From contig CACZZN010000005.1 in assembly GCA_902785705.1 (NCBI GenBank), positions 62,001 to 126,000 on the forward strand: a stretch of DNA of 64,000 nucleotides, read 5' to 3'. The position numbers and the translations under genes were made by a program. The stretch comes from an uncultured Veillonellaceae bacterium. Its GTDB lineage: Bacteria; Bacillota; Negativicutes; Selenomonadales; Selenomonadaceae. The notes under the pieces were generated by a model. It was given only the letters and a program-made list of their open reading frames with translations, was not told where the DNA came from and searched no databases. Shown piece after piece: positions 16,779 through 30,502 of the stretch (the stretch's first letter is position 1; every line of letters starts with the position of its first letter).

Positions 16779-18049
16779 TGTCCAGGCGGAAGTTCATCAC
16801 GCTTTGCGGAAAGCTCTGCATTGCCCTCGGACTCAGTTCCTATTTCCCGGGGATTGCCAGCGCCGCACAGACCGCGGACGGCCATCCAAGGCTCACGGAG
16901 GTCGCCTGTCTTCGGCAGCTTGTGACAAAGGATCCGGCCCATTCCCGCATCCTGATGTTCCAAAGCGACAAACTACTGAAGGATCTGCAGCTGGAATACC
17001 GTAAAACAGGGACGCCTGACAGCCGCTTTCTTCCGATTGCCTATCAGTATCTGGAGCAGGAAAGCATGCCGCAATTCATCTACCACTGCGAGCTTTCCGC
17101 CCTCCTCCCCGGCGCGCGCTACGAATTCCGTATCCTGAGCGGCGAACGTGCCACGGACTGGCAGCCGGTCATCCCCGTCCACGAAGACAGCTTTCAGATG
17201 CTCATCTTCTGCGACTCTCAATGCGTGGATTACGACGTATGGAGGGAGGTGGCGGAAGCGGCCTGCCACAGGCATCCTGCCGCAGAACTCTCCACCGTCA
17301 TCGGAGACTTCACGGACAACGGGCAGTCTTTTTATCAGTGGCAAGGTTGGTTCCAGGGCGCGGAACGCTTGCTTTCCTCCACGATTTTCGCTCCTGTCAT
17401 GGGGAATCACGAGTGCTACGATCTGAAATGGCAAATGTGCCTGCCGGAGGGCTATCTTGCCTACTTCCGGCATCCGGCGAATGGCAGCCTGCGTTTCAAC
17501 GAATATTACTATTCCTTTGACTATGGCCCGGTTCACTTCATCGTGCTCAACAACCAGTTCGACGAATTGGACGGAATCCGCCCCGGGCTTTTGAGGGAAC
17601 AGCTCGCATGGCTGCAGCGGGACGCGAAAAAAAACCGGCTCCCTTGGAAGGTCGTGCTCATGCACAAGGATGTCATTCACTACGAATATCCCGATCCCGT
17701 GAAGGGACCATGCTACATCAATGACATCGGCGAAGCCTTCATGGGAGCCTTTGATGCTCTTGGCATCGATCTCGTGCTCACGGGCCATCTCCACACCTAT
17801 CGCAACCGCCATCACATCTTCGCAGGGAAGCCCGCCGACCGCGGCCCCGCCTACGTGCTTTGCGGCCTCGCGGGAGATCAGCGGTATCCCGGCATCCGGA
17901 TCGACCCCGTCTTTGACAAAGTCACCGCCCCCCAGCCCGAAACGGACAACTACCTCACCCTGGACGCCGCAAGCGAAACCCTCCGCCTGCGCTGCTATTT
18001 GCCGGATGGGACTGTAATCGACGATATGACGCTTTCACACGCAAGATAG
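16775..18049 (+). CDS. Tat-exported metallophosphoesterase, purple acid phosphatase-like
   Basis: 424 residues. A twin-arginine signal, SRRKFITLCGKLCIALGLSS ending at IASA, predicts export folded. Calcineurin-like motifs follow: FCDSQC, GDFTDNGQ, GNHECYD, MHKD and TGHLHTY, with a beta-sandwich-like stretch before them (about 40-140). The overlap with the DedA-like gene suggests a joint job at the envelope, for example releasing phosphate from exported or lipid-linked compounds; that part is inference. Confidence 0.85.
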   Translation: MMSRRKFITLCGKLCIALGLSSYFPGIASAAQTADGHPRLTEVACLRQLVTKDPAHSRILMFQSDKLLKDLQLEYRKTGTPDSRFLPIAYQYLEQESMPQFIYHCELSALLPGARYEFRILSGERATDWQPVIPVHEDSFQMLIFCDSQCVDYDVWREVAEAACHRHPAAELSTVIGDFTDNGQSFYQWQGWFQGAERLLSSTIFAPVMGNHECYDLKWQMCLPEGYLAYFRHPANGSLRFNEYYYSFDYGPVHFIVLNNQFDELDGIRPGLLREQLAWLQRDAKKNRLPWKVVLMHKDVIHYEYPDPVKGPCYINDIGEAFMGAFDALGIDLVLTGHLHTYRNRHHIFAGKPADRGPAYVLCGLAGDQRYPGIRIDPVFDKVTAPQPETDNYLTLDAASETLRLRCYLPDGTVIDDMTLSHAR

Positions 18050-18095
18050 GCGGCTGAATGAATCAGCGTCTCCTTACGGAACTGTTCCAAAAGCA

Positions 18096-19028
18096 TCACA
18101 GCCCCTGCAAAAAGCCGAAGATGCTCTTCCAATAAGCCTCCGGCGCTTCCTTCATGGCATCCCCGTGCCCTGCGCCCTGCACCAGCAGCTTCTCTTTTTT
18201 CCCTGCTCCCGAGGCTGCAAAGAGCCTTTCCATCATAGCAGGGGAAATCAACTTGTCCGCATCGCCGTGAATGAACAAGGTGGGAACCTTGACCCTGTCA
18301 ATGACCTCGATCGGTGCTGCCTCTGATACTTTGGCTCCGGTCTTCCAGCCGCTTACCACATCCACACAATTCAGAATGGGAAAAGTGGGCAGCCCAAAGA
18401 GCACCCCAAGCTGCTCGCCAAACATTTCATAGGCGCTGGTATAGCCGCAATCTTCCACCACGGCGATCAACTGCGGACAGTCATCCCTGGCCGCTGCCAA
18501 GAGCGCCGTAGCCGCCCCCATGGAAACGCCGTGGAGCACGATTTTGGCCTCCGGATCACGCTCCACAATCTGCTGCGCCCAGAGCGCTATTTCCCCGCTC
18601 TCTTTGGCGCCCATCGTGATGTACCGGCCCTCGCTTTCCCCCGAAGCGCAAAGGTCAGGGGTCAGCACCTGCCATCCCTGCTCCAAGTAGGCTTCTGCAT
18701 AGTCCCTGGCGTAGCGCTGGTCGCGCCCGTAGCCGTGGATAAGGACAGCCCACCGATATCCCGGTGTCTCCGGCAGGAAATGCGTCGCAACGAGTTTCCG
18801 TCCGTCTGCTGAGATGCATTCCCACTGCTCACGACCGGCCTGCGGCAGCTTGGGAATCATCCTGCCCTTGTCCTGGATGCGCTCGCAAGCAGACGGTATC
18901 GCTAAGGGATCCTCTGCGTTCCCCCGCTTCAGGGCAAAATCCACGAAATAAGCGCCCACACCATAGCCTGCCGCTGCCAGCAAAAACAAGACAGCAATCC
19001 CGCCGCAAATGTATTTTTTGTTGAACAT
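18096..19028 (-). CDS. Membrane-anchored alpha/beta hydrolase
   Basis: 310 residues. An N-terminal membrane helix (about 8-30) precedes an alpha/beta-hydrolase domain. The nucleophile elbow is HGVSMGAATA, the acid loop FIHGDADKLI, and the catalytic His GAGHGDAM. The oxyanion region is LIHGYGRDQRY. It resembles the serine hydrolases annotated as BAAT/S9-like in Firmicutes. The substrate cannot be told from sequence. It is convergent with the phosphoesterase gene. Confidence 0.85.
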   Translation of the reverse strand: MFNKKYICGGIAVLFLLAAAGYGVGAYFVDFALKRGNAEDPLAIPSACERIQDKGRMIPKLPQAGREQWECISADGRKLVATHFLPETPGYRWAVLIHGYGRDQRYARDYAEAYLEQGWQVLTPDLCASGESEGRYITMGAKESGEIALWAQQIVERDPEAKIVLHGVSMGAATALLAAARDDCPQLIAVVEDCGYTSAYEMFGEQLGVLFGLPTFPILNCVDVVSGWKTGAKVSEAAPIEVIDRVKVPTLFIHGDADKLISPAMMERLFAASGAGKKEKLLVQGAGHGDAMKEAPEAYWKSIFGFLQGL

Positions 19029-19072
19029 CTACCCGACCTGCTTTCCAACGTAATATTGTCCAGCGTTCCATC

Positions 19073-19110
19073 GTTTCGCTCAATTATTCCTGATTTTGGA
19101 CGAAAAATGC
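19073..19110. repeat. Degraded copy of the acetyltransferase promoter/operator
   Basis: On the minus strand ATTTTTCGTCCAAAATCA then AATAATTGAGCGAAA closely match ATTTTTCCTCCAAAATCA and TATAATTGGGCGAAA at 19732-19767. The match continues into CGCTGGA. The copy has lost the -35 and TATAAT. The acetyltransferase gene lies between the two. Confidence 0.6.
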
Positions 19111-19697
19111 TATCTGTCCCAGCTTTTCTTTGCGTCATCATCTGTAATTTGACGAATCACCCTGCAAGGATTTCCTACGGCCACACTGTTAGATGGAATA
19201 TCCTTTACCACAATGCTGCCGCCTCCTATCACCACGTTGCTTCCAATCGTGACACCGGGCATGACCTGCACGCCTGCACCAATCCAGACATTATCACCGA
19301 CGACAATCGGATATGCGTATTCCAGTCCCTGATTTCTCCGTTCAAAATCGATTGGATGTCCAGACGTGTGGAAACCGCAAGATGGTGCAATGAAAACATC
19401 GTGGCCAAAAGTCACACCTCCTGCATCGAGAATCACCAAACCGTGATTCGCATAAAAATTTTCCCCCACTTTGATTCTATAGCCATAATCACACCAAAAA
19501 TCCGGCTCAATGTGAACATTCTTTCCTGTTTCTCCGATGATCGATTTAATGAACTCATGTCTCTCATCTATATTGTCTATCGCAAGGTTGTTGTATTTTT
19601 GGCAAAGAATCTTGCATTGAATTCTTTCCCTTTCAAGCTCCTTATCGTAATTGGCATCATATAGTTTCTGATGCAGCATCTTATCTTTTTCTGACAT
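19110..19697 (-). CDS. Maltose/galactoside O-acetyltransferase-like protein
   Basis: 195 residues. An N-terminal Maa helix motif (MLHQKLYDANYDKELERERI) precedes a left-handed beta-helix of hexapeptide repeats (about 70-180): VHIEPDFWCDYGYRIKVGE, the catalytic-type His in PSCGFHTSGHP, and VWIGAGVQVMPGVTIGSN. The family moves acetyl from acetyl-CoA to sugar hydroxyls. The ATG at 19697 is chosen because AAAGGAG lies 10 bases upstream and a good promoter and operator sit 45-70 bases upstream. A continuous frame to 20036 exists but crosses those signals. Confidence 0.85.
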   Translation of the reverse strand: MSEKDKMLHQKLYDANYDKELERERIQCKILCQKYNNLAIDNIDERHEFIKSIIGETGKNVHIEPDFWCDYGYRIKVGENFYANHGLVILDAGGVTFGHDVFIAPSCGFHTSGHPIDFERRNQGLEYAYPIVVGDNVWIGAGVQVMPGVTIGSNVVIGGGSIVVKDIPSNSVAVGNPCRVIRQITDDDAKKSWDR

Positions 19698-19740
19698 TTT
19701 AGAAATGCTCCTTTCATCCAGCGAATTCCATTTTCGCCCA

Positions 19741-19769
19741 ATTATATTTGATTTTGGAGGAAAAATCAA
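19741..19769 (-). promoter_or_regulatory. Promoter with overlapping 8-bp-arm operator for the acetyltransferase
   Basis: On the minus strand TTGATT and TATAAT are separated by exactly 17 bases. TTGATTTT-TCCTCC-AAAATCAA is a perfect inverted repeat covering the -35 and most of the spacer. This geometry suits a repressor. No regulator gene is adjacent. Confidence 0.7.
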
Positions 19770-19982
19770 TTCATTGGACAAAAAAGGTGCCTCCGATATC
19801 ATATCCGTTACAATGACACAGTCTTTTGCCCAGTACAGATTAAAATCCTTTTTGCCGGGTCTATACATGACATTCTGAATCCCCTGGTTCTGCAGGAACC
19901 GGAAAACATAGATGCTGCTTTCTTTTTCAACCTGTATGAAAACCGTATTCTGCGCAATCAGATGGTTTAGAAACTCGTTCAT
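19770..19982 (-). other. In-frame coding-like remnant upstream of the acetyltransferase
   Basis: An open stretch begins MNEFLNHLIAQNTVFIQVEK and runs without a stop into the acetyltransferase frame. It includes YVFRFLQNQGIQNVMYRPG and LYWAKDCVIVTDMISEAPFL. It looks like real protein but I do not recognise the family. A promoter lies between it and the acetyltransferase start, so it is more likely the tail of a lost gene than an N-terminal domain. Confidence 0.4.
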
Positions 19983-19984
19983 TA

Positions 19985-20096
19985 AATGAGCTTGGCCCAG
20001 ATTTGCGAGAATTGGCTGTCCATTGCAAGGCGACAAACCGCAGTCATAGTGGTGCTATGTCGAGGATTTGTCAACACAGGATGGGCTGAGGAATTA
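19985..20096. repeat. Dispersed intergenic repeat, copy B
   Basis: It contains CAAGG, AAACCGCAGTCATAG, GCTATGTCGAGG and CAACACAG, matching copy A at 7741-7835. The inner stem is CATAG/CTATG instead of CGTAG/CTACG. The outer ends CTTGGCCCAGATTTG and GGATGGGCTGAGG are roughly inverted copies. It separates the Fic gene from the acetyltransferase remnant. Confidence 0.6.
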
Positions 20097-20130
20097 ATCA
20101 ACACACCCTAAATTCCTTTGTTAAAAATTT

Positions 20131-21024
20131 TTATTCGTGTAGTATTTTCAAATATGCGTCCAGCCTTGCGTTGATATACCCGGCAAGCAGTCCTTCCATA
20201 GCGGAAAGATCGTGCTTGACATGGTAGGCATCAAAGGCATTGTAATACATGACCCTGTCGGTAAACTTGATGTCGATAGGCGGATATCCCGCCTTCATCA
20301 GTTCAAGGTTGACAAGCAGTCTGCCGGTTCTGCCGTTGCCGTCGATAAAAGGATGAATGCCTTCAAACTCGATATGAAACCGGGCGAGCTTTGTTACGAT
20401 GTGTTCCTCGCTTGCAGCGTAGTCCTGCAGAAGCTGTTCCATTTTCGGTTCGATAAGATACGGCTGCACAGGTTCATGATGAGCGCCCATAATGCGCACG
20501 GGAACTCTTCTATAAACGCCTCGGTCATCCTTTTTGTCTGCAAGTACAAGATAGTGGATCTGTTTAATGATGCTTTCGGTGAGAGGCGCTTTTTCTTTCA
20601 CAAGCTCTCTGACATAATCGAAAGCCTCTTTATGACCGACAGCTTCCATATGATCTTTCAGCGGTTTCTGAGCTATCGTAAGTCCACGGAGAACAAGGTC
20701 GGTTTCCCGGAGCGTCAGCGTGTTGCCCTCGATAGCGTTGGAGTTATATGTGTATTCGACTGTAAATTCCTCATTGAACCGCTCCAGTTCACCTTCGGTC
20801 AGAGGTCTTCTGCCGTCCAGCTCCACTTTTTTGCGGTTGATCTGAGACAGGATACTATCTTTCGATTTAAACCTGCCATCGACGGGCTTTTCCGCGTCAA
20901 TCGGGATCTTCCAGCCGCGTCCTTCCTGATACGCGCCGGGAATCTTGCCCTCGGAGCATAATACTCTTATTCTTCTGTCGGAAATACCCCATTTCGCGGC
21001 CGCTTCTTTTACCGTCATATACAT
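20131..21024 (-). CDS. Fic family protein with N-terminal HTH
   Basis: 297 residues. An excisionase/MerR-like DNA-binding segment (1-45: MTVKEAAAKWGISDRRIRVL) precedes a Fic domain. Its core HPFIDGNGRTGRLL carries the catalytic His and the GNGR anion site. The inhibitory helix SNAIEGN (S/TxxxEG/N) lies N-terminal to the core, so the enzyme is probably auto-inhibited. Fic proteins usually transfer AMP to protein hydroxyls. The start at 21024 has GGAGGTGA upstream. The DNA-binding domain and the repeat array at its promoter suggest self-regulation, which is inference. Confidence 0.93.
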   Translation of the reverse strand: MYMTVKEAAAKWGISDRRIRVLCSEGKIPGAYQEGRGWKIPIDAEKPVDGRFKSKDSILSQINRKKVELDGRRPLTEGELERFNEEFTVEYTYNSNAIEGNTLTLRETDLVLRGLTIAQKPLKDHMEAVGHKEAFDYVRELVKEKAPLTESIIKQIHYLVLADKKDDRGVYRRVPVRIMGAHHEPVQPYLIEPKMEQLLQDYAASEEHIVTKLARFHIEFEGIHPFIDGNGRTGRLLVNLELMKAGYPPIDIKFTDRVMYYNAFDAYHVKHDLSAMEGLLAGYINARLDAYLKILHE

Positions 21025-21052: not shown

Positions 21053-21081
21053 ATTATACCATACTATCGGAATAATATCAA
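21053..21081 (-). promoter_or_regulatory. Consensus sigma-70 promoter of the Fic gene
   Basis: On the minus strand TTGATA (21081-21076) and TATAAT (21058-21053) are 17 bases apart, about 30 bases before the Fic start. One copy of the TTATTCCG repeat lies in the spacer and touches the -35. Confidence 0.85.
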
Positions 21082-21182
21082 GGTTATCGGAACAACATAT
21101 TACAGAATAGCGGAATAATATAAACAGTTGCGGAATAACCTCCTTCCTGTTGGAACAATGCAGCCGCAATCAGCGGAACAAT
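21068..21182 (-). repeat. Array of six TTRTTCCG repeats upstream of the Fic gene
   Basis: Plus-strand copies of CGGAAYAAYAT begin at about 21068, 21088, 21111, 21131, 21151 (first base changed) and 21174. Spacings are 20, 23, 20, 20 and 23 bases, close to two helical turns, so all copies face one side of the DNA. The innermost copy overlaps the Fic promoter. Confidence 0.8.
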
Positions 21183-21267
21183 AGAAAAGACACCCGGAAA
21201 TTTCCGAGTGCCCTTAAACATCATATTGCAATCTTGGAGTGCTTTTAATATTGTAGTTTGCGGACCG

Positions 21268-21300
21268 TTTGCAGCCTTGAAGGAGCTGCAAAGCCTTTTT
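21268..21300 (+). terminator. Isolated intrinsic-terminator-like hairpin
   Basis: TTTGCAGC and GCTGCAAA form a perfect 8-bp stem around CTTGAAGGA, followed by GCCTTTTT. No plus-strand gene precedes it, so it may be left over from a deleted gene. The rest of 21183-21480 holds only a CACCCGGAAATTTCCGAGTG palindrome (21190s) and nothing I can call a gene. Confidence 0.5.
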
Positions 21301-21481
21301 ACGAGCCGTTTCCTCGACCCCCTCATGCCGGAACATTCTCAAAACCGGCGCACCCGGATTGCAGTGTTATTCTTGCAATCTTGGCAGATCTCATCGGATA
21401 CAAGGCCAACAGTCCGGACGTTGACCGGAGCAAAACCGAAATCCTGACGCTCTGTTATGATCTCGATATACTATTTTGGTC

Positions 21482-21616
21482 TTATGAAGGTTTTTTCTCC
21501 GCTTCCTCGGCATCCCTAATCTGATAATAATCATCCATATTGACGGAGACTTTTATCGTATCATCGGGTTTTCGTCTGCCCAAGAGGCACACAGTCTCCA
21601 CATGGCTCGATTGCTC
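21482..21616 (-). pseudogene. 3'-end fragment of a 23S rRNA uracil methyltransferase gene
   Basis: The minus-strand frame reads EQSSHVETVCLLGRRKPDDT and continues to NMDDYYQIRDAEEAEKK and a stop. SSHVETV is the C-terminal motif of RumA/RlmCD enzymes (the intact gene at 25869-27245 ends SSHVETVVLMS). Only the last 45 codons remain. Upstream, TCGTTCTCGGAAA occurs at 21652-21664 and 21714-21726. Both copies sit in frames reading D(I/L)FPRT, the motif that normally precedes SHVET, so several such ends seem to be stacked here. Confidence 0.6.
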
Positions 21617-21842
21617 CAGATTGATGTCAAATATCCGTCAAATTGCTCCGTTCGTTCTCGGAAATATATCAACGGCATTTTTGACCTTAAAATAGCCATT
21701 TTTTCGACCGCACTCGTTCTCGGAAACAGGTCGATGTGGTTGTCCCTACTTATAATATGGAACCGGGCAAACTTGCCGACCGTCTCAAAACTACGCTCTG
21801 AGGAAATAAGTCCGAAATCCCATCCACTCGACCTTAGAGATT

Positions 21843-22427
21843 TTATACATCTGGTTTTTCACCAAATTCAAATCTTGCTTTTCCTGCTGCGATAGCAGCA
21901 ACAGCGACGTCCTCTTCTGTCCTATCTGGAACAACCCGTAACCCCTTCATAAACCGAGAATAGTATTCTTCTTCAATGAGTTCTTTAGGTGCCTGAATAC
22001 GACAATTGTCTGGATATTTTTCTGAAGGCCATTCCCATACATATTCCTAAATTCCGGAAAAATCTCCAACTCGAACAGCGCATAAGTTCGGTGATCCAAT
22101 AAGGACTGAAAACTTGATGTTTTCATTATCAAGCCTACGACAGAATTCTTCGCACTTTTTTATTTCGCCCAAACTCAACGGTTTGCCTTTGATCTCGAAC
22201 CACCTATTCAAGCTTGGAATATAAAAGTCTGGAAGATATCTGGTTCCATCCATTTCGAATCCTTCGATTTCATATTCATAAGTTAGACCGACTGCATTGA
22301 AAAAGACAGCCCAGCGAGCTTCAAGTCGACTACGAAATCGATGTCCGTCATATTCTGTTTCAATTGCTTTTATATCATTACTCACGGACGAATAAGCCTC
22401 TTTCTTCAAATGCAACACCATTACCAT
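21843..22427 (-). pseudogene. PDDEXK-like hypothetical gene interrupted by an in-frame TAG
   Basis: The first 126 codons encode YDGHRFRSRLEARWAVFFNA, GTRYLPDFYIPSLNRWFEIKG and so on, a family found in mobile elements whose DFYIP...EIKG spacing resembles a PDDEXK nuclease core. A TAG at 22047-22049 ends that frame. Reading through it, the same frame continues for 67 codons (EYVWEWPSEKYPD to AAIAAGKARFEFGEKP) to a TAA, which resembles the normal tail of the family. A single nonsense mutation is the simplest reading. Its start overlaps the preceding gene's TAA by one base. Confidence 0.7.
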
Positions 22428-22978
22428 TATTCATGTCTTACAAGGACTCTCTTAGTGTCCTTGTATTTTTCACGCAATGATGGGATGTTTATATCAGTAC
22501 CTAATACTTCACGAACGACGCCCCATAGACCATCTTTTTCATCCGGGAAGCTATCCATATACTGGTTAAACGGGAGTTCCATCACGAACTTTGCCTGATC
22601 CTCGATGCCTCTGCCCGGAACACCATAATCCAATATAGGAGACAACCCTGTTTTGATGTCTTTTCCAAAAACAATAACTCCTGATGCCGGTGCTCCTCCA
22701 AGCAAGGTCATGCTTATCGCAAGATCAATCATTTTATCATCAAGGCTAATCCATGAGTGATCAAAGTACAATCCTTGCCCAAGCACCTCGCCTATACATA
22801 GAGAAGGTGTATATCCGATCTCAGATAGGCAAACATATAACGCAGCGCACGAAGCGTGGCAGGCACCCCACCATTATTTTCTCTCCATGTACCTGTACAT
22901 GTTTGCCAGAACATCCCCTACATCTTCTTTATAGCCATTTTCTTTAACTGCATAACTTATTTGCTCCGGAACACTCAT
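22427..22978 (-). pseudogene. Hypothetical gene of the GmrSD operon, interrupted by an in-frame TAA
   Basis: An ATG at 22978 overlaps the GmrSD-like stop (ATGA). It opens MSVPEQISYAVKENGYKEDV and runs 34 codons to MYRYMERK, where a TAA stands at 22874-22876. The same frame then continues WWGACHASCAALYVCLSEIG, CIGEVLGQGLYFDHSWISLD and on to VLVRHE. The Cys-His and FDHSW residues look like a papain-like or transglutaminase-like core, but I cannot name the family. Restarting at the GTG at 22786 would lose the Cys-containing part. Confidence 0.65.
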
Positions 22979-25557
22979 TGTGTCTTTCTTAAACAGCAAT
23001 TCTTATATTTTTTCCCGCTTCCGCATGGACACGGATCATTTCTTCCTATTTTCATCACGCGCCCCTTCTTTATTGTTTTATAAAGGAAGTTAGCCATCTG
23101 GAGCCAATCGGTCTCGTTCTCGATGCTGACATTATTCAGCTGAATGAATACCTTGGACGATTTGATGTCGTCGCCACGGTTCCACTGGAGCGTCGTGCCC
23201 AGCGCAGATTCTATTTCTGCTTTATGTGTATACAGGCTATCGAATGCAGCCTTGTTTTCTTGCTTATTTCCTCTGCCAAATACGACCTCTGTCCGCGCCG
23301 CATCAAAGTTTGCTACGCAGCAAAGATAGAAGCCGCCTATACCAAAGAAGCCGTTGATCCAGTTATCCCTTGACGGATTAACATTGGAGAAGGAACCATC
23401 CTCGCCGTGAGCTTTCTGGATAATCGGGAGCGCGTATGTCCAATATTTTCTTCGGAGCTCGTAACGGCTACCCGGTTCATCCTCATTCACTTCGTTCTCA
23501 TCACGCAGATAAAATACCAAGTCTGCCGGATCTTCATCGTACAATTTGAAGAGACGACTCAGAACAGATAGCTTGCTCTGAGTGCTGGTGTTTGTCCATA
23601 CATAGATGCCATCGCCGATCTCAAGCGACTTCGTGAACGCATCCTGATTTGTATTGAAGTGGAGAGCAATGTTCTCCTCCTCCGACATGGCCAGCTTAGT
23701 GATAATGGCCTTATCCTCGGCATACAGAATCTGAATAACCTTCTGGAACATCTCAACCCAGCTCGTTACCGGCTGCTCAGTGTTTTTAAAGGTGAACTTC
23801 GCAATCAGTCGTCCGGTCAGTTCGCCCTCATCCTCAAGCGTATAAGTGTCAAGCTGCTTTTCTTCCGGTTTATATTCTGTGACAGGTGCTGCCCAGATTG
23901 ACAGAGCCCGACCCATGAGATATTCGCTGCGCTCCTCCAGCTCCGCCAGCGTCCACTTGTCCTTCTTGGCAATCCAAGTATTCATGCGGATACCACTGTC
24001 ATCGAAACCGTTCTGCATGGTTCTCTTTTCAGTGAAAGAGCTATTGCTGTATTTCGAGTTGTAGGCCGTCAGCGTAAGATTTGCCATGCGATGCAACCAC
24101 AGCTCATGTATCTGCTCATAGTCATCGCCCAGCTCCTTCTGCCACACCGGTGTCAGATGCTGAGGCATAATGTGCTCAATCGAATAGGTGCCGTCATCAC
24201 AGTGACGGTATACATCCTTATCCTCCGAAGTACCGAAGTTCTCGAAGCGCTCAAGAATGTAAATCTTATTCTTGCTGTTCATCAGATAAACTGGACGTTC
24301 CTCAAATGCCGCCTTAAACTCCACATCGTCCGGGAAGCGGGCACGCTCTTTCTTGGAAAGAAGTGCATACTTGAGCTTCTCGACATAGTTATCCTCGGTA
24401 CCGTCGTATCGTATGATCTCTCGGTGCAGCATGAGGAAGATTTTATTCAGAGCATTTGTCGGCAGGTCACACATCGTCCGGCGGAACAGGTAATTCTCTG
24501 TCGTCAGGAAAATCTCAGTGACCTGTGCCAACGTCAGTTTGTTTTCGTTATATAGGCGCAGCACTTCGAGGAAATACGGCCTTGTTACCGTAGTCTCCAA
24601 ACGATTCAGTCGGTCAATACAAGCGTCAAGGGCGGCACTGCCAGAATTACCATCAAGGAGAATCTGGTACCGCTTTGCGTAGGCCAGCATCTCGGCAAGG
24701 AGTGGTTCCGTTTCGATTTTTCCAAGCTCCACAAAGTCCTTAAAATTGATGTAGATCTTCTTCTGCTGCGGGATGGCCTGCTGCTTCACACTCAGGTAAT
24801 CCCGGATAAAGGCGCTTACATCATACTTCGTGCAAACCTCGATCTTATTCCAGTATTTCTCGTAATAATCCTCCTGCTCCTTAGAAGGCAAGCCCATCAA
24901 TATGAAATTTCTGATCTTATCACCTTCACTGAGGTCAAGACCGGTCGAGTTCAGGCTCTCAAAAATGAGCTGCGGATTGTCGTCCATATCCAGTCGGATG
25001 TTTATAATCTCCAGACAGCAGATCGCATCGTAAAGCTGATCGATGGTGATTTCCTGTTTCTGAATGCGGTCATAAAAATAATCGTAATTCACAGTCAGAT
25101 TGGACTCGCGGATATGCTCTGTCGGATCAGAGAACAGCTTCCCGAAAGCCGTCTGGTCATTCTTTACCGGTTTGAGCTTGATACGGGTATCCTCCGGCTT
25201 CCACTTGTCCACGAGGTATTCCTCGAAAATTCGCTGCTTCAGATTAGCGGTCTCCGGCACAATGACACCCTTATCAATCAAGTTATACATGGCAAGGAAC
25301 AACAGCGAAACTGTCGTAAGACGCTGCTGGCCATCAATGATCAGAAACTCCTCATTGTGCCCATCCGGATTATAGACAGAAACAAGACTCCCGAAAAAGT
25401 GACTCTTCCGGTTCCCCTTGATGATCTTTACAAGATCATCATACAGCTGCTTGCAGTTTTCGGTTTTCCAGTCATAGTTTCTCTGATAAACCGGAATGAC
25501 AAACCGCTTGTCTGAGCCCTCCATATATTTAACGAATTTGCATTCTGAACCTTTCAT
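22975..25557 (-). CDS. GmrSD-like DUF262/DUF1524 restriction protein with DUF4268 and SEC-C tail
   Basis: 860 residues. The DUF262 (ParB/Srx-like) N-terminal domain has IPVYQRNYDWK and IIDGQQRLTT (DGQQR). DUF1524 carries an HNH-type core, SIEHIMPQHLTPVW and HRMANLTLTAYNSKYSN. A DUF4268-like region follows (about 700-830, DNWINGFFGIGGFYLCC). The last 25 residues are a SEC-C zinc motif, RNDPCPCGSGKKYKNCC. GmrSD proteins are type IV enzymes that cut modified phage DNA using NTP. The SEC-C tail is an uncommon addition. Two further genes overlap it in one operon. GAGGAGG precedes the ATG. Confidence 0.9.
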   Translation of the reverse strand: MKGSECKFVKYMEGSDKRFVIPVYQRNYDWKTENCKQLYDDLVKIIKGNRKSHFFGSLVSVYNPDGHNEEFLIIDGQQRLTTVSLLFLAMYNLIDKGVIVPETANLKQRIFEEYLVDKWKPEDTRIKLKPVKNDQTAFGKLFSDPTEHIRESNLTVNYDYFYDRIQKQEITIDQLYDAICCLEIINIRLDMDDNPQLIFESLNSTGLDLSEGDKIRNFILMGLPSKEQEDYYEKYWNKIEVCTKYDVSAFIRDYLSVKQQAIPQQKKIYINFKDFVELGKIETEPLLAEMLAYAKRYQILLDGNSGSAALDACIDRLNRLETTVTRPYFLEVLRLYNENKLTLAQVTEIFLTTENYLFRRTMCDLPTNALNKIFLMLHREIIRYDGTEDNYVEKLKYALLSKKERARFPDDVEFKAAFEERPVYLMNSKNKIYILERFENFGTSEDKDVYRHCDDGTYSIEHIMPQHLTPVWQKELGDDYEQIHELWLHRMANLTLTAYNSKYSNSSFTEKRTMQNGFDDSGIRMNTWIAKKDKWTLAELEERSEYLMGRALSIWAAPVTEYKPEEKQLDTYTLEDEGELTGRLIAKFTFKNTEQPVTSWVEMFQKVIQILYAEDKAIITKLAMSEEENIALHFNTNQDAFTKSLEIGDGIYVWTNTSTQSKLSVLSRLFKLYDEDPADLVFYLRDENEVNEDEPGSRYELRRKYWTYALPIIQKAHGEDGSFSNVNPSRDNWINGFFGIGGFYLCCVANFDAARTEVVFGRGNKQENKAAFDSLYTHKAEIESALGTTLQWNRGDDIKSSKVFIQLNNVSIENETDWLQMANFLYKTIKKGRVMKIGRNDPCPCGSGKKYKNCCLRKTQ

Positions 25558-25563
25558 CTGTCT

Positions 25564-25725
25564 TTATTCCTCCTCGTTTGATAGCGAGGCCTTCAGTTTT
25601 AATTTCCCGGTACTGCCATCCTTCACGACATACTCCGGATTTTCCTTGATAAATCGCGCCGACTCACGCGAGAAGCCATTTCTCTGCAAAAGGATCGTCA
25701 GCGGATTTGTGGTGCCGTATTCAAC
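25564..25725 (-). pseudogene. C-terminal stub of a DEAD/DEAH-type helicase
   Basis: About 54 codons read HYVEYGTTNPLTILLQRNG, FSRESARFIKENPEYVV and KLKLKASLSNEEE. From memory this matches the C-termini of large DEAD/DEAH helicases found in defence islands. The frame has a stop just upstream and no helicase motifs, so the 5' part is gone. It ends 7 bases before the GmrSD-like start, the position of an upstream operon partner. Confidence 0.5.
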
Positions 25726-25838
25726 ATAGTGACATCTATCGTGGCAACTCAACTCTCACACTTTTTGAGCTAATTTGCCCTTCGATAAGTTACCGAGAAG
25801 CATTTGGTCTGCCCGATGTTAAATTCCTCCGATTGTCC

Positions 25839-25868
25839 GAAAACCGCAGTATTACTGGGCTTTTGCGG
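25839..25868 (-). terminator. Weak terminator after rlmCD
   Basis: On the minus strand CCGCA and TGCGG enclose AAAGCCCAGTAATAC, followed by TTTTC, directly after the rlmCD stop. Confidence 0.4.
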
Positions 25869-27245
25869 CTATTTTCCTTCGACTCTTGACATCAATACTA
25901 CTGTCTCGACATGCGAGCTAAACGGGAACATATCCACGGGCTGCACTTTCTCCGCCCGATATCCCAATCCATCAAGAATTGCAATATCCCTTGCCAGCGA
26001 GGCGGGGTTGCAGGATACATAGACGATTCTTTTCGGCTCCATCTGTGCGAAAGTTTCCAGTACCACCGGCGTGCAGCCGGCTCTCGGGGGATCTACGACA
26101 ACGACATCTGGGCGGATGCCTTGCTTGTAGAGCTTGGGCATAACGACGGTTGCGTCTCCTACGATGAATTCCGCGTTCTTGATGTGATTGTCCCTGGCAT
26201 TTTGCCGGGCATCCAAAATCGCAGGCTTTACGATTTCGATGCCGTAAACCCTGCGGGCTTTCCGGGCGAGGAACAACGTGATGGTCCCCGTGCCGCAATA
26301 GGCGTCTATGACGATTTCATGTCCGCTGAGCTCTGCGAATTCCAGTGCCTTGTTATAGAGCACTTCTGCCTGCTCGCTGTTGACCTGAAAAAATGATCTT
26401 GCGGAAATATGGAAATCCAGCCTGCCAAGAGAATCCAGAATCGTCGGCTTGCCCCAGAGGAGCTTTGTTTCCCTTCCCAGAATGACGTTATTGTGATAGG
26501 TCTGGATATTCTGTTGGATGCTTGTGAGCTTCGGCACTTTTTCGCGCAACAGCCGCACGAATTCCCTGGCTTTCGGAAGTTCTTTCGTCGCCGTCACCAG
26601 CACCGCCATGAGTTCTCCGTTTTTTCCCACACGCCCCATGACATGACGCAACACGCCCGTATGCCGATCCTCATCATAAACGGAGATATGAAGCTGATCC
26701 ACGATTTCGCGTACCGCGTTGACAATCGCATCGTTGCCCTGCTTCTGGATATGACATTCATGCGTGTCGATGATGTCATGGCTCCCCTGTGCGAAGCATC
26801 CGATGACAGTCCTGCCCTTGCTCCTCCCGATGGGGAACTGCATTTTATTTCGATAGTTCCACGGATGCTCCGCAGGCAAAGTCTCCCCCACAAAAAGGTC
26901 AGGACGTTTGCCGATACGGGAAACAGCGTCGACGACCTGCTGATGCTTTGCCTTGAGCTGTGCCTCATAGGAAAGATGCTGGAGCTGACATCCTCCGCAA
27001 GCGTGATAAACCTTGCATTTGGGTTCCACGCGATCCGCACTTTTGCGCAGGATTTTCAACAACCTGCCCCTCGCATAAGTCTTCTTGACTTCTTCAATCT
27101 GCGCCTCGACAAGCTCGCCCGGCAACGCATAAGGCACAAAAACCGTAAATCCCTCAAATTTTCCCACGCCTTCACCGCTGCTGCCCAAACCGTGGATTTC
27201 AATTTCGTAAGTCTTCCCTTTCACCACAGGGATTGTCTTTTTCAT
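25869..27245 (-). CDS. rlmCD: 23S rRNA (uracil-C5)-methyltransferase, RlmD/RlmCD type
   Basis: 458 residues. A TRAM domain (about 5-65, YEIEIHGLGSSGEGVGKFEG) precedes Fe-S cysteines (CKVYHACGGCQLQHL) and the methyltransferase fold: VIDAYCGTGTITLFLA (SAM), VVVDPPRAGC and the nucleophile Cys in YVSCNPASLARD. It ends SSHVETVVLMSR. The family makes 5-methyluridine in 23S rRNA with SAM. Whether this copy is RlmC-, RlmD- or dual-specific cannot be decided. It overlaps gph by 4 bases (ATGA). The accessory region begins just past its stop. Confidence 0.92.
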   Translation of the reverse strand: MKKTIPVVKGKTYEIEIHGLGSSGEGVGKFEGFTVFVPYALPGELVEAQIEEVKKTYARGRLLKILRKSADRVEPKCKVYHACGGCQLQHLSYEAQLKAKHQQVVDAVSRIGKRPDLFVGETLPAEHPWNYRNKMQFPIGRSKGRTVIGCFAQGSHDIIDTHECHIQKQGNDAIVNAVREIVDQLHISVYDEDRHTGVLRHVMGRVGKNGELMAVLVTATKELPKAREFVRLLREKVPKLTSIQQNIQTYHNNVILGRETKLLWGKPTILDSLGRLDFHISARSFFQVNSEQAEVLYNKALEFAELSGHEIVIDAYCGTGTITLFLARKARRVYGIEIVKPAILDARQNARDNHIKNAEFIVGDATVVMPKLYKQGIRPDVVVVDPPRAGCTPVVLETFAQMEPKRIVYVSCNPASLARDIAILDGLGYRAEKVQPVDMFPFSSHVETVVLMSRVEGK

Positions 27246-27943
27246 AAACGCTCCAATCTTTCCGATTCCCGTTCTGCGTTCCCCACAAAGTTTAATCGTT
27301 CCAACAGTTCCATCGGATGCTTCAGGATCAGATCCGCGCCGCTTTCCACCAGTTCCGACTCCGGGCGGAACCCCCAGCTGACACCAATCCCGAGGAATCC
27401 TGCACGGCTTGCCGTTTCCATGTCCACCGGACTGTCTCCGATATATGCGACTTCCTCGGGGAGAACGCCCATACGTTCTGTAATCTGCAAGGCACGGGAC
27501 GGATCCGGCTTGCGAGCCTGTCCGGGAACATCTCCCACGATCTCGCGAAATATCCCGGCAGGGAACAGCTTTGCGGCGATCAATCTTGCTGCAGGCTCCT
27601 GCTTGTTCGTGCAGACGGCCAGTGGGATTCCCTTCTGCTGCAGCTTCCCCAGCATTTCAAGGATTCCCTCATAAGGCTTCGATTTGTTCATCATATTTTT
27701 TTCATAAATACCTTTGTAACGTACCAAAGCCTCATCCACAAAAGTCTCATTCTCTGCCATGTCCTTCGGCAAGCTGCGCTGGATCAGCTTTCTGGGGCCG
27801 TTCCCGACAAAATAACGGTACTCTTCCAGCGTATGTCCCGGATATCCGTAAAATGACAGCAGCTCCTCCACGCTGTCCGCCAAATCCTCCAAAGAATTAA
27901 GCAACGTTCCATCCATGTCAAAAATCACCGCACGATACTGCAC
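27242..27943 (-). CDS. gph: HAD-family phosphoglycolate phosphatase-like hydrolase
   Basis: 233 residues. HAD motif I is FDMDGTLLNS, motif II VCTNKQ, motif III K (QARKPDPSRAL) and motif IV YIGDSPVDMETASRAG. The cap lies between motifs I and II. The likely role is clearing 2-phosphoglycolate from damaged DNA ends, which fits its repair and rRNA-modification neighbours but is not proven. I chose the GTG at 27943, 6 bases after AAGGAGG; the ATG at 27949 sits directly on that site, and a frame to 27991 exists. Confidence 0.85.
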   Translation of the reverse strand: MQYRAVIFDMDGTLLNSLEDLADSVEELLSFYGYPGHTLEEYRYFVGNGPRKLIQRSLPKDMAENETFVDEALVRYKGIYEKNMMNKSKPYEGILEMLGKLQQKGIPLAVCTNKQEPAARLIAAKLFPAGIFREIVGDVPGQARKPDPSRALQITERMGVLPEEVAYIGDSPVDMETASRAGFLGIGVSWGFRPESELVESGADLILKHPMELLERLNFVGNAERESERLERL

Positions 27944-27993
27944 AAACATCCTCCTTCGCACAGGAACTTTCCAAATGTAGTCCCGTAACATGA

Positions 27994-28034
27994 GACTTAT
28001 CCGGTGGGAGCCTTAACCTCCCACTGAATAAGTC
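27994..28034. repeat. Long imperfect palindrome between gph and the diguanylate cyclase gene
   Basis: GACTTAT-CCG-GTGGGAG and CTCCCAC-TGA-ATAAGTC face each other across CCTTAAC: two perfect 7-bp arms separated by a 3-base mismatch. No T tract follows on either strand, so this is not an ordinary terminator. Confidence 0.65.
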
Positions 28035-28051
28035 GAATAAACCCACTGTCG

Positions 28052-30502
28052 TCAGTTTTCTTTCTTCATTGCCATCTTATGCTCATACATCGCCGCATCC
28101 GCCTCATGGAAAACGGCTGCGTATTCCATGCCGCTCCGATAGACTCCAATGCCTCTGGCCACGGATACAGCCAGTTCGTCGCCCTCCACCTCGAAGCGCT
28201 CTGCCTGCGTCTGTTCGTCGAAGGAACGAAGCAGCTGCTCCCGATGCTCGTAGTCCTGTTTCTCCAGAATGGCTACAAACTCATCGCCGCCCACACGGAA
28301 GACAGGACTGTGAGCGAACACTCTGCAGATGATATTTGCCGCACGGCGGATCAGCTCGTTTCCGGCTTCATGCCCATAGCGGTCGTTGACGCGCTTCAGG
28401 AAATTCGCATCAAATACCACAACAGCATAGGCAAGCGACTCTTCAGACCTGCGCTTGTCAAGCTCTGCTCCTTTCCGCATGTAAGCCGCCGTATTCCGAA
28501 GCCCTGTGAGCTTGTCCCGATACACATAGACTTCCAGCTTGGAAACCATCTCGCGGATGCTGTCCACCAAAGCGCCCAGTTCGTTTTCCGACTCGTAGGG
28601 GATCTTGACATCCAGATTGCCTGCCGCAATCCTTTTCGCTGCATCCGTCAATGCCAATAAGGGACGGATGCCACGGGAAGCCAGCCAGATGCTGAAGAAC
28701 GATACCATGATTGCCACGAATAACATGCTCGCGATCAAATGCATCAGCATATTGTTGCGCTCCGCGTACACATCGTGGCGGGGCATTGCTATGCCCAGCC
28801 AAACGCCGTCGAAAAGATAGGTCTCTCTTTCATAATAGCCGGGATTCGGCACAAAATCAGCTCCCTGCTCAAAATCCCTATGATAGAGCACCCTATCGTT
28901 CCGATCCATCAGATAGACATGTCCATAATCATAAACCGCCATTCTGCGGACTTCATGGACCAGATACTCGAAATCGATGTCCATGCCCACAATGCCCACG
29001 AAATGATTTCCCTCATAAAACGGCGCGACATAGGAAATGACATAGTCCTTCGTCAGGGGATCGATGTACGGCTCGATCCATGTTGCATGATGGCGCTGCA
29101 TCGGAATATAAAACCAGCCTACATTTTTTACATCGGTCGGCTCATATTTCGAAAGATCGATGGGAACCCTCCGGTAGAAAGAAGGGATCGCTCCTTCCCA
29201 GCGATCCGCCTCACGTTCCCACGAAAAACCGCTAATCGGCCCCGCATAGGACGGATCGCAGCGCAGGTAAAACGCAATACTGCCGTCCGTACCGGCGGCA
29301 ACCAACTCGCAGAAACGCTCCATCCGCTTCAGGTAATCCTGTCGATACGCTTCATCATTCACAAGACGGTCATAGCTTTCCATTTCATGCAGGGCCAAAG
29401 CCTTCATGCCATTGACGGAAACCCGTATGCCGTCGAACGTCCTCCGCATCCGTTCCCGGCAGATGGCGCTCATCTCTTCCATGGACTGCTCCGCATGCTG
29501 ACTGAGCGCATAATCCATTGCGAAAAAACAGCCCCATCCCAGCACTGCGGCGGAAATAAAAACTGTCACGACCTCCAGCAGCACGACATTGGTCATGATG
29601 GAACGCCGATAGCGAAGCAGCATATAAAAAAGAGCGATCATCGCTGCATTTACCATGGTCAGGCATTCCGCAATGTACTGCCGCCATGTGTCGATCTGGT
29701 CCAGATCGTAGATGATGCCGGAAACATCCAAAAAAACAAACAACGCAAAAAAAGAAAGGAAGAATAGAAGCGCCATGCTCCAGCTGCTGTCGTGCGAAAA
29801 GCTCCCTGCGCCGACGGAGACGTCCTGCTCTGCTGCGCTCTCGGTACTGCCGCTGATCTCCGGTGATGCCGAACGGAAAAGATAGCGCTGTTTTGGTTGA
29901 TAAAATGCGTAGTTACGGCTGATAAGATAGAAAAACCAAATCGATCCAAAGAAAATCGCGATGTTAAAGTCGTTGACAAAACAAAGCAGCACATATTCGA
30001 TGCAGGAATTGATACGGGAACCCGTATGTTCCCGTATTTGAGCCCATCCCTCCGCATCCATGGTGAGCCCTTGAAAAACGGACGTTACCGAAAAGGTAAG
30101 AAACAAAATTCCGACGAACTTCAGCAAACAGTGCGCACTGGAAGAAAAAACCGGCTCCCCCGGACGCACAAAACAAGAATGCCACAGGCGAAACGGCAGA
30201 TACGCAGATAAAAAGACACAGAGCGCATCTCGGCAAAGGACCCAGAAAGACTGCGCCGAGACCGCGCCCGCCCCCTCCTGCTCCATAAGACGGCCAACGG
30301 CCTGCCAGTCCACGCCTGTCAGCAATTCCCCCACGAAAACGCCTGCGGCCGCCACGGGCCCCCACATCAGCCCAAGCAAAGGCGGCAGAAACGTCGCAAA
30401 TCGGACCACCTGCAGCGGCATCACAAAAATAACAGGCGCAGCCATCACGCATATGGAATAAACGATGAGCGAACAGAAAAAGCGGCAAACTACTCGTTTC
30501 AA
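28052..30502 (-). CDS. Membrane diguanylate cyclase (MASE-like, dCache, HAMP, GGDEF)
   Basis: 816 residues. About eight hydrophobic segments lie in the first 310 residues (for example PLLGLMWGPVAAAGVFVGEL). A periplasmic dCache domain (about 350-570) has DYVISYVAPF and GIVGMDIDF. Then come a membrane helix, HAMP (RGIRPLLALTDAAKRIAAGN) and a complete GGDEF domain (RDKLTGLRN, NDRYGHEAGN, RVGGDEF). No RxxD inhibitory site precedes GGDEF. It should make c-di-GMP in response to an external signal. The start is TTG with GAGGAGGTG upstream, 32 bases after the TRAP-type binding-protein stop. Confidence 0.9.
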   Translation of the reverse strand: MKRVVCRFFCSLIVYSICVMAAPVIFVMPLQVVRFATFLPPLLGLMWGPVAAAGVFVGELLTGVDWQAVGRLMEQEGAGAVSAQSFWVLCRDALCVFLSAYLPFRLWHSCFVRPGEPVFSSSAHCLLKFVGILFLTFSVTSVFQGLTMDAEGWAQIREHTGSRINSCIEYVLLCFVNDFNIAIFFGSIWFFYLISRNYAFYQPKQRYLFRSASPEISGSTESAAEQDVSVGAGSFSHDSSWSMALLFFLSFFALFVFLDVSGIIYDLDQIDTWRQYIAECLTMVNAAMIALFYMLLRYRRSIMTNVVLLEVVTVFISAAVLGWGCFFAMDYALSQHAEQSMEEMSAICRERMRRTFDGIRVSVNGMKALALHEMESYDRLVNDEAYRQDYLKRMERFCELVAAGTDGSIAFYLRCDPSYAGPISGFSWEREADRWEGAIPSFYRRVPIDLSKYEPTDVKNVGWFYIPMQRHHATWIEPYIDPLTKDYVISYVAPFYEGNHFVGIVGMDIDFEYLVHEVRRMAVYDYGHVYLMDRNDRVLYHRDFEQGADFVPNPGYYERETYLFDGVWLGIAMPRHDVYAERNNMLMHLIASMLFVAIMVSFFSIWLASRGIRPLLALTDAAKRIAAGNLDVKIPYESENELGALVDSIREMVSKLEVYVYRDKLTGLRNTAAYMRKGAELDKRRSEESLAYAVVVFDANFLKRVNDRYGHEAGNELIRRAANIICRVFAHSPVFRVGGDEFVAILEKQDYEHREQLLRSFDEQTQAERFEVEGDELAVSVARGIGVYRSGMEYAAVFHEADAAMYEHKMAMKKEN

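Follow-up and report, generated by a model that had tools for sequence, protein, structure and literature searches.

A probable composite of two decayed elements at the 3' end of rlmCD in a Selenomonadaceae-like bacterium

The DNA behind rlmCD in the window, i.e. the whole stretch of 64 kb that was analysed, is probably a decayed tandem accretion of the CIME type, in which the remains of two elements form a composite island at the 3' end of the gene. The island carries a foreign RlmCD tail and the conserved right end (RE) of an element, which meet at a short junction, and it is inserted between rlmCD and the Fic gene that natively follows it (Table 1); an exchange of RlmCD tails of the same kind is found in a relative. 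The initial annotation had read this region as an integration hotspot marked by stacked 3' ends of rRNA methyltransferase genes, a reading that is partly supported, being right in outline but wrong in detail.

Table 1. Features of the region from rlmCD to Fic in the 64-kb window.
Feature	Positions	Strand	Evidence
Intact rlmCD (23S rRNA uracil-5-methyltransferase)	25869-27245	-	Pfam tRNA_U5-meth_tr and TRAM; end VDMFPFSSHVETVVLMSRVEGK, then stop
attB-like core of intact rlmCD, CATGTCGAGACAGT (codons HVETV)	25900-25913	-	top matrix match of the window
Hachiman HamB-type helicase, C-terminal fragment	25564-25752	-	PADLOC HamB 4e-15, profile 792-845 of 866
GmrSD-type gene	22975-25557	-	Pfam GmrSD_N, GmrSD_C, DUF4268, SEC-C; PADLOC Orf5 6e-174
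Family-less open frame, probably a remnant	22427-22786	-	no Pfam or PADLOC match
Frame-broken gene without family match, possibly a nuclease	21843-22427	-	PADLOC PDC-S69 at E 0.009 only
Right end (RE) of element, conserved, apparently non-coding	21605-21832	-	alignments; 10 other loci with complete copy
DR1, attB-like repeat, the weakest	21776-21813	-	
DR2, attB-like repeat (IDLFPRTSAVE), contains one 13-mer	21705-21738	-	
DR3, left half of attB-like site (VDIFPRT), contains the second 13-mer	21650-21676	-	
Putative recombination core CATGTGGAGACTGT	21591-21604	-	two homology blocks overlap there
Element-borne RlmCD tail HVETVCLLGRRKPDDTIKVSVNMDDYYQIRDAEEAEKKPS, then stop	21482-21604	-	90-97% DNA identity in 13 of 79 loci
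Unassigned remnant between tail and native Fic promoter	21125-21448	-	
Fic gene with N-terminal HTH, native downstream neighbour of rlmCD	20131-21024	-	

The extent of the insertion is given by relatives in which the site is empty. In one of them (G286), the next gene after rlmCD, across a gap of about 310-340 bp, is a Fic gene with 80% identity to the one in the window, and a second genome (G014) has a broken Fic copy directly after rlmCD. Homology to G286 extends up to 25898 on the rlmCD side and is found again from 21124 on the Fic side, indicating that about 4.77 kb have been inserted in the window. The DNA homology with relatives breaks off near the rlmCD core, at 25898 (G286), 25891 (G014) and 25883 (G022). 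The distance from rlmCD to Fic in the window is 4,844 bp (about 4.8 kb) and holds the GmrSD-type gene and the HamB fragment; the coordinates and the Pfam and PADLOC matches bear out the earlier statement that rlmCD is intact, ends at 25869 and is followed by defence-type genes. The window RlmCD gene is up to 75% identical to those of family members. GC content is 39-49% inside the island versus 50-61% at 17500-19000 and 26000-28500, but it is also 38-49% at 19000-21000, outside the island and including Fic, so that the island is not delimited by GC. The source genome (2.01 Mb in 38 contigs, completeness 82%) has no congeneric genome among the matches listed; its gene set gives it a Selenomonadaceae-like appearance. 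An assembly chimera is conceivable, although native DNA lies on either side of the island and the contig has a length of 226 kb. Around the Fic gene, two further observations were made. An in-frame fusion joins an AbiEi-type antitoxin fragment (DUF6577) and a maltose acetyltransferase (19110-20036, minus strand), and two imperfect 42-bp repeats (21055-21139, TATCGGAATAATAT...), possibly an operator of the Fic protein, lie ahead of the HTH-Fic gene, with a similar array ahead of Fic in G286.

On the minus strand, the peptide SSHVETVCLL is encoded at 21610-21581 and its frame runs to a stop at 21482 (...DDYYQIRDAEEAEKKPS and stop). Relatives were collected by a genome scan with a two-row alignment, of which the best 80 of 128 were taken, representing 79 distinct loci. 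The DNA from 21604 to 21449-21460 is matched at 90-97% identity in 13 of them (for L144 only to 21503, where its sequence ends), with Lachnospiraceae MAGs as the best matches (up to 96.6%). At 11 of these 13 loci the tail continues an RlmCD, each time that of a different host. The remaining two are L136, where the tail is the continuation of a serine recombinase, and L145, where other DNA leads up to it; this DNA follows AbiEi and DUF1016 genes, and rlmCD lies 2 kb upstream. Since the tail is nearly constant behind different genes, it is attributed to an element and not to the history of the host genes themselves. As judged from these alignments, 21604-21482 is a foreign, element-borne RlmCD C-terminal tail. 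Its occurrence behind differing host RlmCDs agrees with the initial view of the fragment as a displaced rRNA methyltransferase 3' end, and an in-place duplication, which had been named as the contrary outcome, is ruled out by the 90-97% identity to Lachnospiraceae tails and by a similarity to the local rlmCD that reaches little beyond HVETV. Other tails of the DYY type behave similarly: at many of the listed junctions an RlmCD runs on into such a tail, and at some a recombinase or unrelated DNA does. A short-peptide search with the tail fragment, covering 380 genomes of the class, gave matches in the window and G257 only (2/380), tblastn of the fragment gave no match in plasmids and a single weak one in phages (E 0.1), and a DNA search of plasmids also gave none. 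Second, longer RlmCD 3' ends are present 1-6 kb downstream in G028, G024, G274 and G273 (L034, L035, L047, L048), in G028 with a DUF262-like gene and transposase-like genes in between; these are duplications of another sort and do not enter the evidence.

The RE (21832-21605) has other homologues. Window positions 22454-21591 are 93.5% identical in DNA to a Lachnospiraceae MAG (L169), where the counterpart of the frame-broken gene is intact (182 aa), and positions 21835-21581 are 77-81% identical to L210, L207 and L195, the spans differing slightly. Outside the window, a complete RE is found at 10 distinct loci (L169, L210, L207, L195, L213, L225 and L227-L230, with L195 and L226 counted once as the same genome region), among them the phage contig MT837304 (L213); the alignments do not include the short matches (34-80 bp) of L221-L224. 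All 10 stop at the HVET core and are followed by different RlmCD tails. Partial copies are carried by the phage record PV036450 and by G249, a genome of the same family as the window, in which a Fic gene is followed by about half of the RE (L235 12527-13781) and no rlmCD was found in the 16.5 kb covered. Of 387 genomes of the family f115, the searches found the RE in 9, six of them with a match longer than 200 bp; of 171 genomes of the window's own family, 2 have it, the source genome being one. The genes ahead of the RE differ: the window has a broken family-less gene, L225 and L228 have Fic, L226 has a type I RM system with GmrSD upstream, and L229 and L230 have a methyltransferase/helicase cluster upstream, the PADLOC analysis covering one gene of L229 and none of L230. 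Three pattern scans of viral contigs returned 0, 1 and 0 stretches, the only one (L238) showing the same RE match and flanking genes as L230. Since the RE is complete at 10 other loci and partial in at least two more, the block with its two D(I/L)FPRT motifs arrived ready-made in this genome.

The two homology blocks, which have different partners, overlap at 21604-21591, which defines a core about 14 bp long (8-19 bp depending on the pair of loci, leaving aside L195). As in rlmCD-targeting elements, the junction lies at the HVET codons of rlmCD with the 3' tail exchanged; for the serine recombinases of L136 (Porcincola) and L202 (Extibacter), recombination would be expected at CATGTGGAGAC. 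As had been proposed, rlmCD/rumA is a real integration target, and relatives carry elements at exactly this place. The proposed att core does not coincide with the junction. The 13-mer TTTCCGAGAACGA is present in exactly two copies (21652-21664 and 21714-21726), inside the two D(I/L)FPRT frames on the minus strand (VDIFPRT at 21673-21653, IDLFPRT at 21735-21715), and a third copy with up to one mismatch was not found in the 64-kb window; dinucleotide shuffling gives an expectation of 0.07, and two copies occurred in 0/100 shuffles. The exact repeat described initially is thus real for both D(I/L)FPRT frames but absent from the SHVET fragment, and its nearer copy lies 48 bp away from the junction that the two sets of homologues define, which argues against the 13-mer as att core.

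The resemblance of the repeats to RlmCD 3' ends was scored with a matrix built from 124 rlmCD 3' ends. IDLFPRTSAVE scores 9.3 bits, a value reached by 0/200 shuffles of the window RE, and the left-half sites score 19.0 and 16.8 bits versus a shuffle maximum of 10.5 (n=200). On the scale of 64 kb IDLFPRTSAVE is second to rlmCD itself (47.6 bits), with unrelated sites close at 7.8 and 5.8, and a sharper matrix sets it at 0.1 versus -6.5 for the next unrelated site. Within the stretch, D(L/I)FPRT thus resembles the end of RlmCD more than chance would give; this resemblance and the SSHVETVCLL fragment were among the initial observations. DR2 is the best site outside the core in all 12 RE sequences tested, and its score was unreached by 200 shuffles in 8 of them (the other four, L226, L225, L229 and L230, had 6, 26, 1 and 11). 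The left half exceeds every shuffle in 11/12 for DR2 (exception L225) and in 9 of the 11 copies having DR3 (exceptions L227 and L228), and DR1 scores at about the 95% level of shuffles; because the copies share ancestry, these tests are not independent. In an alignment of 11 sequences, mean column identity is 0.90 for DR1, 0.83 for DR2, 0.84 for DR3 and 0.94 for the core arm versus 0.72 outside, the blocks having been picked post hoc with the alignment already seen. The array may be the fossil of att sites that were stacked in an ancestor, or it may be a set of binding sites.

A recombinase was not found in the island (21125-25868) among its open reading frames or by Pfam and PADLOC, and the window does not show the integrase gene, at the right end and cut by the core, that is typical of rlmCD targeting. 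In the source genome PF07508 matches two genes, on contigs C14 and C15 only; C14 carries a large serine recombinase between type I restriction-like pieces (L236 6629-8203). Genes with Resolvase, Recombinase and Zn-ribbon domains cross the core in three relatives: in L136 and L202 their reading frame is that of the tail, in L206 it is a different one. Two genes annotated as DNA invertase stand beside the RE in PV036450, where a third gene reads as a probable recombinase, and the three genes after rlmCD in G277 are likewise candidate recombinases. The initially suggested comparison of strains downstream of rlmCD yields elements at the site in relatives and integrases in L136 and L202. Since the window is without a recombinase and the recombinase gene of relatives runs into the core, we infer by analogy that a large serine recombinase would have moved the window elements.

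The exchange of tails can be followed from end to end in G257, a genome of the same family. Its rlmCD has a related DYYRIKD tail (C18:47363), then follow 16.4 kb, and a C-terminal remnant, called recombinase-like from its sequence by eye and without a recombinase match in Pfam, precedes the displaced native end HVESVCLLMRKEKMVE at C18:30929; 1.0 kb past this end lies the gene that directly follows rlmCD in G258. G257 thus shows a tail exchange in full, in which an element entered at the HVET codons, gave rlmCD a new end and pushed the old one away. In the window, no displaced native tail is seen within 21125-21448. The tail of the window rlmCD is short and native-looking, its 31 bp from the core on being 90% identical to G022, with several other short tails about as close, and for this reason the left end of element B is not recognised. 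As a further example of a cassette G268 was considered, where a DUF262 gene stands alone between rlmCD and the next gene, but it was rejected because the core scar is absent.

The composite would have arisen in three steps. An element A, whose left end would encode the replacement RlmCD tail, would have inserted at the HVET codons, and an element B would have inserted at the same core ahead of A, so that the right end of B came to abut the tail of A at 21604-21591; the order, A then B, is the one we infer. Later losses would have removed the recombinase and most of the rest of A, together with the native rlmCD tail displaced before, while B would be left as recombinase-free defence cargo (HamB fragment, GmrSD-type gene, broken gene) and the RE with its attB-like repeats. 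The RE and the tail come from two different sets of homologues, as would fit two elements at one att site, but neither element is whole; clear parallels are L172 and L202. A single transfer is the main competitor. In this reading the RE, core and tail came jointly from a rumen Lachnospiraceae donor, either by homologous recombination or within a larger element, and there was no second insertion here. It is less favoured and has perhaps a modest chance of being right: both sides of the junction have their best matches in Lachnospiraceae MAGs (93.5% and up to 96.6%), and the displaced native tail was not found. It is opposed by the absence of the RE from all 13 tail-bearing loci, by the other tails that follow the 10 other complete REs, and by the position between rlmCD and Fic, which favours site-specific arrival.

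Repeated local insertion and excision at the 13-mer as att core, with stacked scars of rumA 3' ends as the outcome, was the mechanism proposed initially, and it could draw on the resemblance of the repeats to rlmCD 3' ends; given that the whole stack is conserved in other hosts, complete at 10 other loci, and that the junction is at a different sequence, it is very improbable. Equally little credit can be given to the RE being a structured RNA or a small gene in place of an element end. Its strong conservation and a 75-aa open frame in L210 would suit such a function, but the window RE folds with z-scores of -0.11 and -0.74, Rfam has no match in the window, the copies differ in length by 10, 11 and 1 columns, which shifts reading frames, and all 10 other complete copies end at the HVET core.

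The window segment belongs to a wider set of segments behind rlmCD. Complete segments without a detectable recombinase, running from rlmCD to a core or from core to core and 2.2-5.3 kb long each, are found in the window, L145, L146, L172 (three), L197, L211, L225 and L227; L226 adds a longer segment of this type (17 kb), which includes phage-like genes, the two cores of L176 are separated by 1 kb, and L147 and L202 are among those whose segments contain a recombinase. A pattern count gave at least two core sites in 2 of 90 loci, namely two in L202 and four in L172 (511, 4798, 7261 and 10007); one pair of the L172 hits represents the same tail. L172, from Frisingicoccus caecimuris, is the clearest stack, with its four HVET cores in 10 kb behind rlmCD and, between them, two DUF262-like genes, a RhuM-type gene and an AbiE pair. 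At a PADLOC threshold of E 1e-5, a match was obtained for 13/22 cargo ORFs (at least 150 aa) from the eight loci with 2.2-5.3-kb segments versus 8/20 controls upstream of rlmCD (20 of 23 listed ORFs run), so that the plain count does not show an enrichment of defence genes in the cassettes. The 13 exclude a desaturase-model match in L227, and the cargo count leaves out L226 (type I RM, GmrSD), the 1-kb inter-core segment of L176 and the IS-bearing segment of L228. The control matches include two UvrD-type helicases and three Cas3-HD proteins that look like housekeeping genes, and matches covering at least 80% of the profile number 10/22 versus 2/20, under a rule set post hoc. By their profile matches, many cargo genes are of defence type. 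A tentative extension of these observations is that the rlmCD 3' end might serve in gut Firmicutes as a capture platform, where large serine recombinases acting in trans would stack small recombinase-free cassettes. Each cassette might then combine a replacement tail for RlmCD, a single accessory gene or a few, often for defence, and an RE that ends in the HVET core. RlmCD could conceivably keep a working tail throughout while older cassettes shift downstream, and the attB-like repeats of the RE might be recombinase binding sites that would enable cassettes to move.

Among known systems, the nearest are streptococcal ICEs and IMEs, in which a single serine integrase inserts in rumA (PMC4701971, PMC5704250); in the account excerpted from the former, insertion exchanges the 3' parts of rumA and of the integrase gene, while triplets of integrases use other targets (PMC4701971). 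The target gene and the altered RumA C-terminus are shared, as is the exchange of gene 3' parts seen in L136 and L202. Unlike these elements, as far as the excerpts describe them, the window has no integrase or transfer gene, a Selenomonadaceae-like host and defence-type cargo, and its repeat-bearing right end has no mention in the excerpted text (PMC4701971, PMC5704250). The concepts of CIME and accretion, in a source that also covers rumA-inserted IMEs (PMC5704250), would fit the window in that integration and transfer genes are missing, an att end is kept and another element probably lies in tandem; here it is the right att end, a left end at rlmCD was not recognised and element A is nearly gone. 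The Ruminococcus phage NatCom_38182 (PV036450) likewise has an rlmCD 3' part at one end of its record and an RE with DR1 and DR2, but this is a 53.6-kb phage record whose RE ends after DR2. Integrons, which are marked by the tyrosine integrase IntI and attC cassettes, are similar in layout only; the relatives here carry serine recombinases. The product of rlmH is an rRNA methyltransferase. At this gene, called that of a tRNA methyltransferase in the part of the source concerned, staphylococcal SCC and the Enterococcus cassette chromosome insert (PMC6222049). As described there, they resemble the present elements in their large serine recombinases, the 3' region of an RNA methyltransferase gene, highly variable cargo and att-site remnants; they differ in that the target here is rlmCD and not rlmH, that the window island has no ccr genes or recombinase, and that in the relatives the C-terminus of the integrase itself is exchanged with the target gene. 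Accretion at rlmCD is known in principle, while the host, the cargo and the end structure do not appear in the excerpts of these three papers (PMC4701971, PMC5704250, PMC6222049), and none of the open-licence papers among the matches listed treats such defence cassettes behind rlmCD in Lachnospiraceae or Selenomonadaceae. Should the cassettes prove mobile, they would offer a route for phage defence among gut bacteria comparable to that of rlmH and SCC, and the signature of tail and core is a simple way to locate cargo at the rlmCD site. The exchange of gene ends at rumA/rlmCD is hereby extended to rumen and gut Lachnospiraceae, a Ruminococcus phage record and Selenomonadaceae-like bacteria, and in these the cargo is often of defence type and the non-coding end is in part shared.
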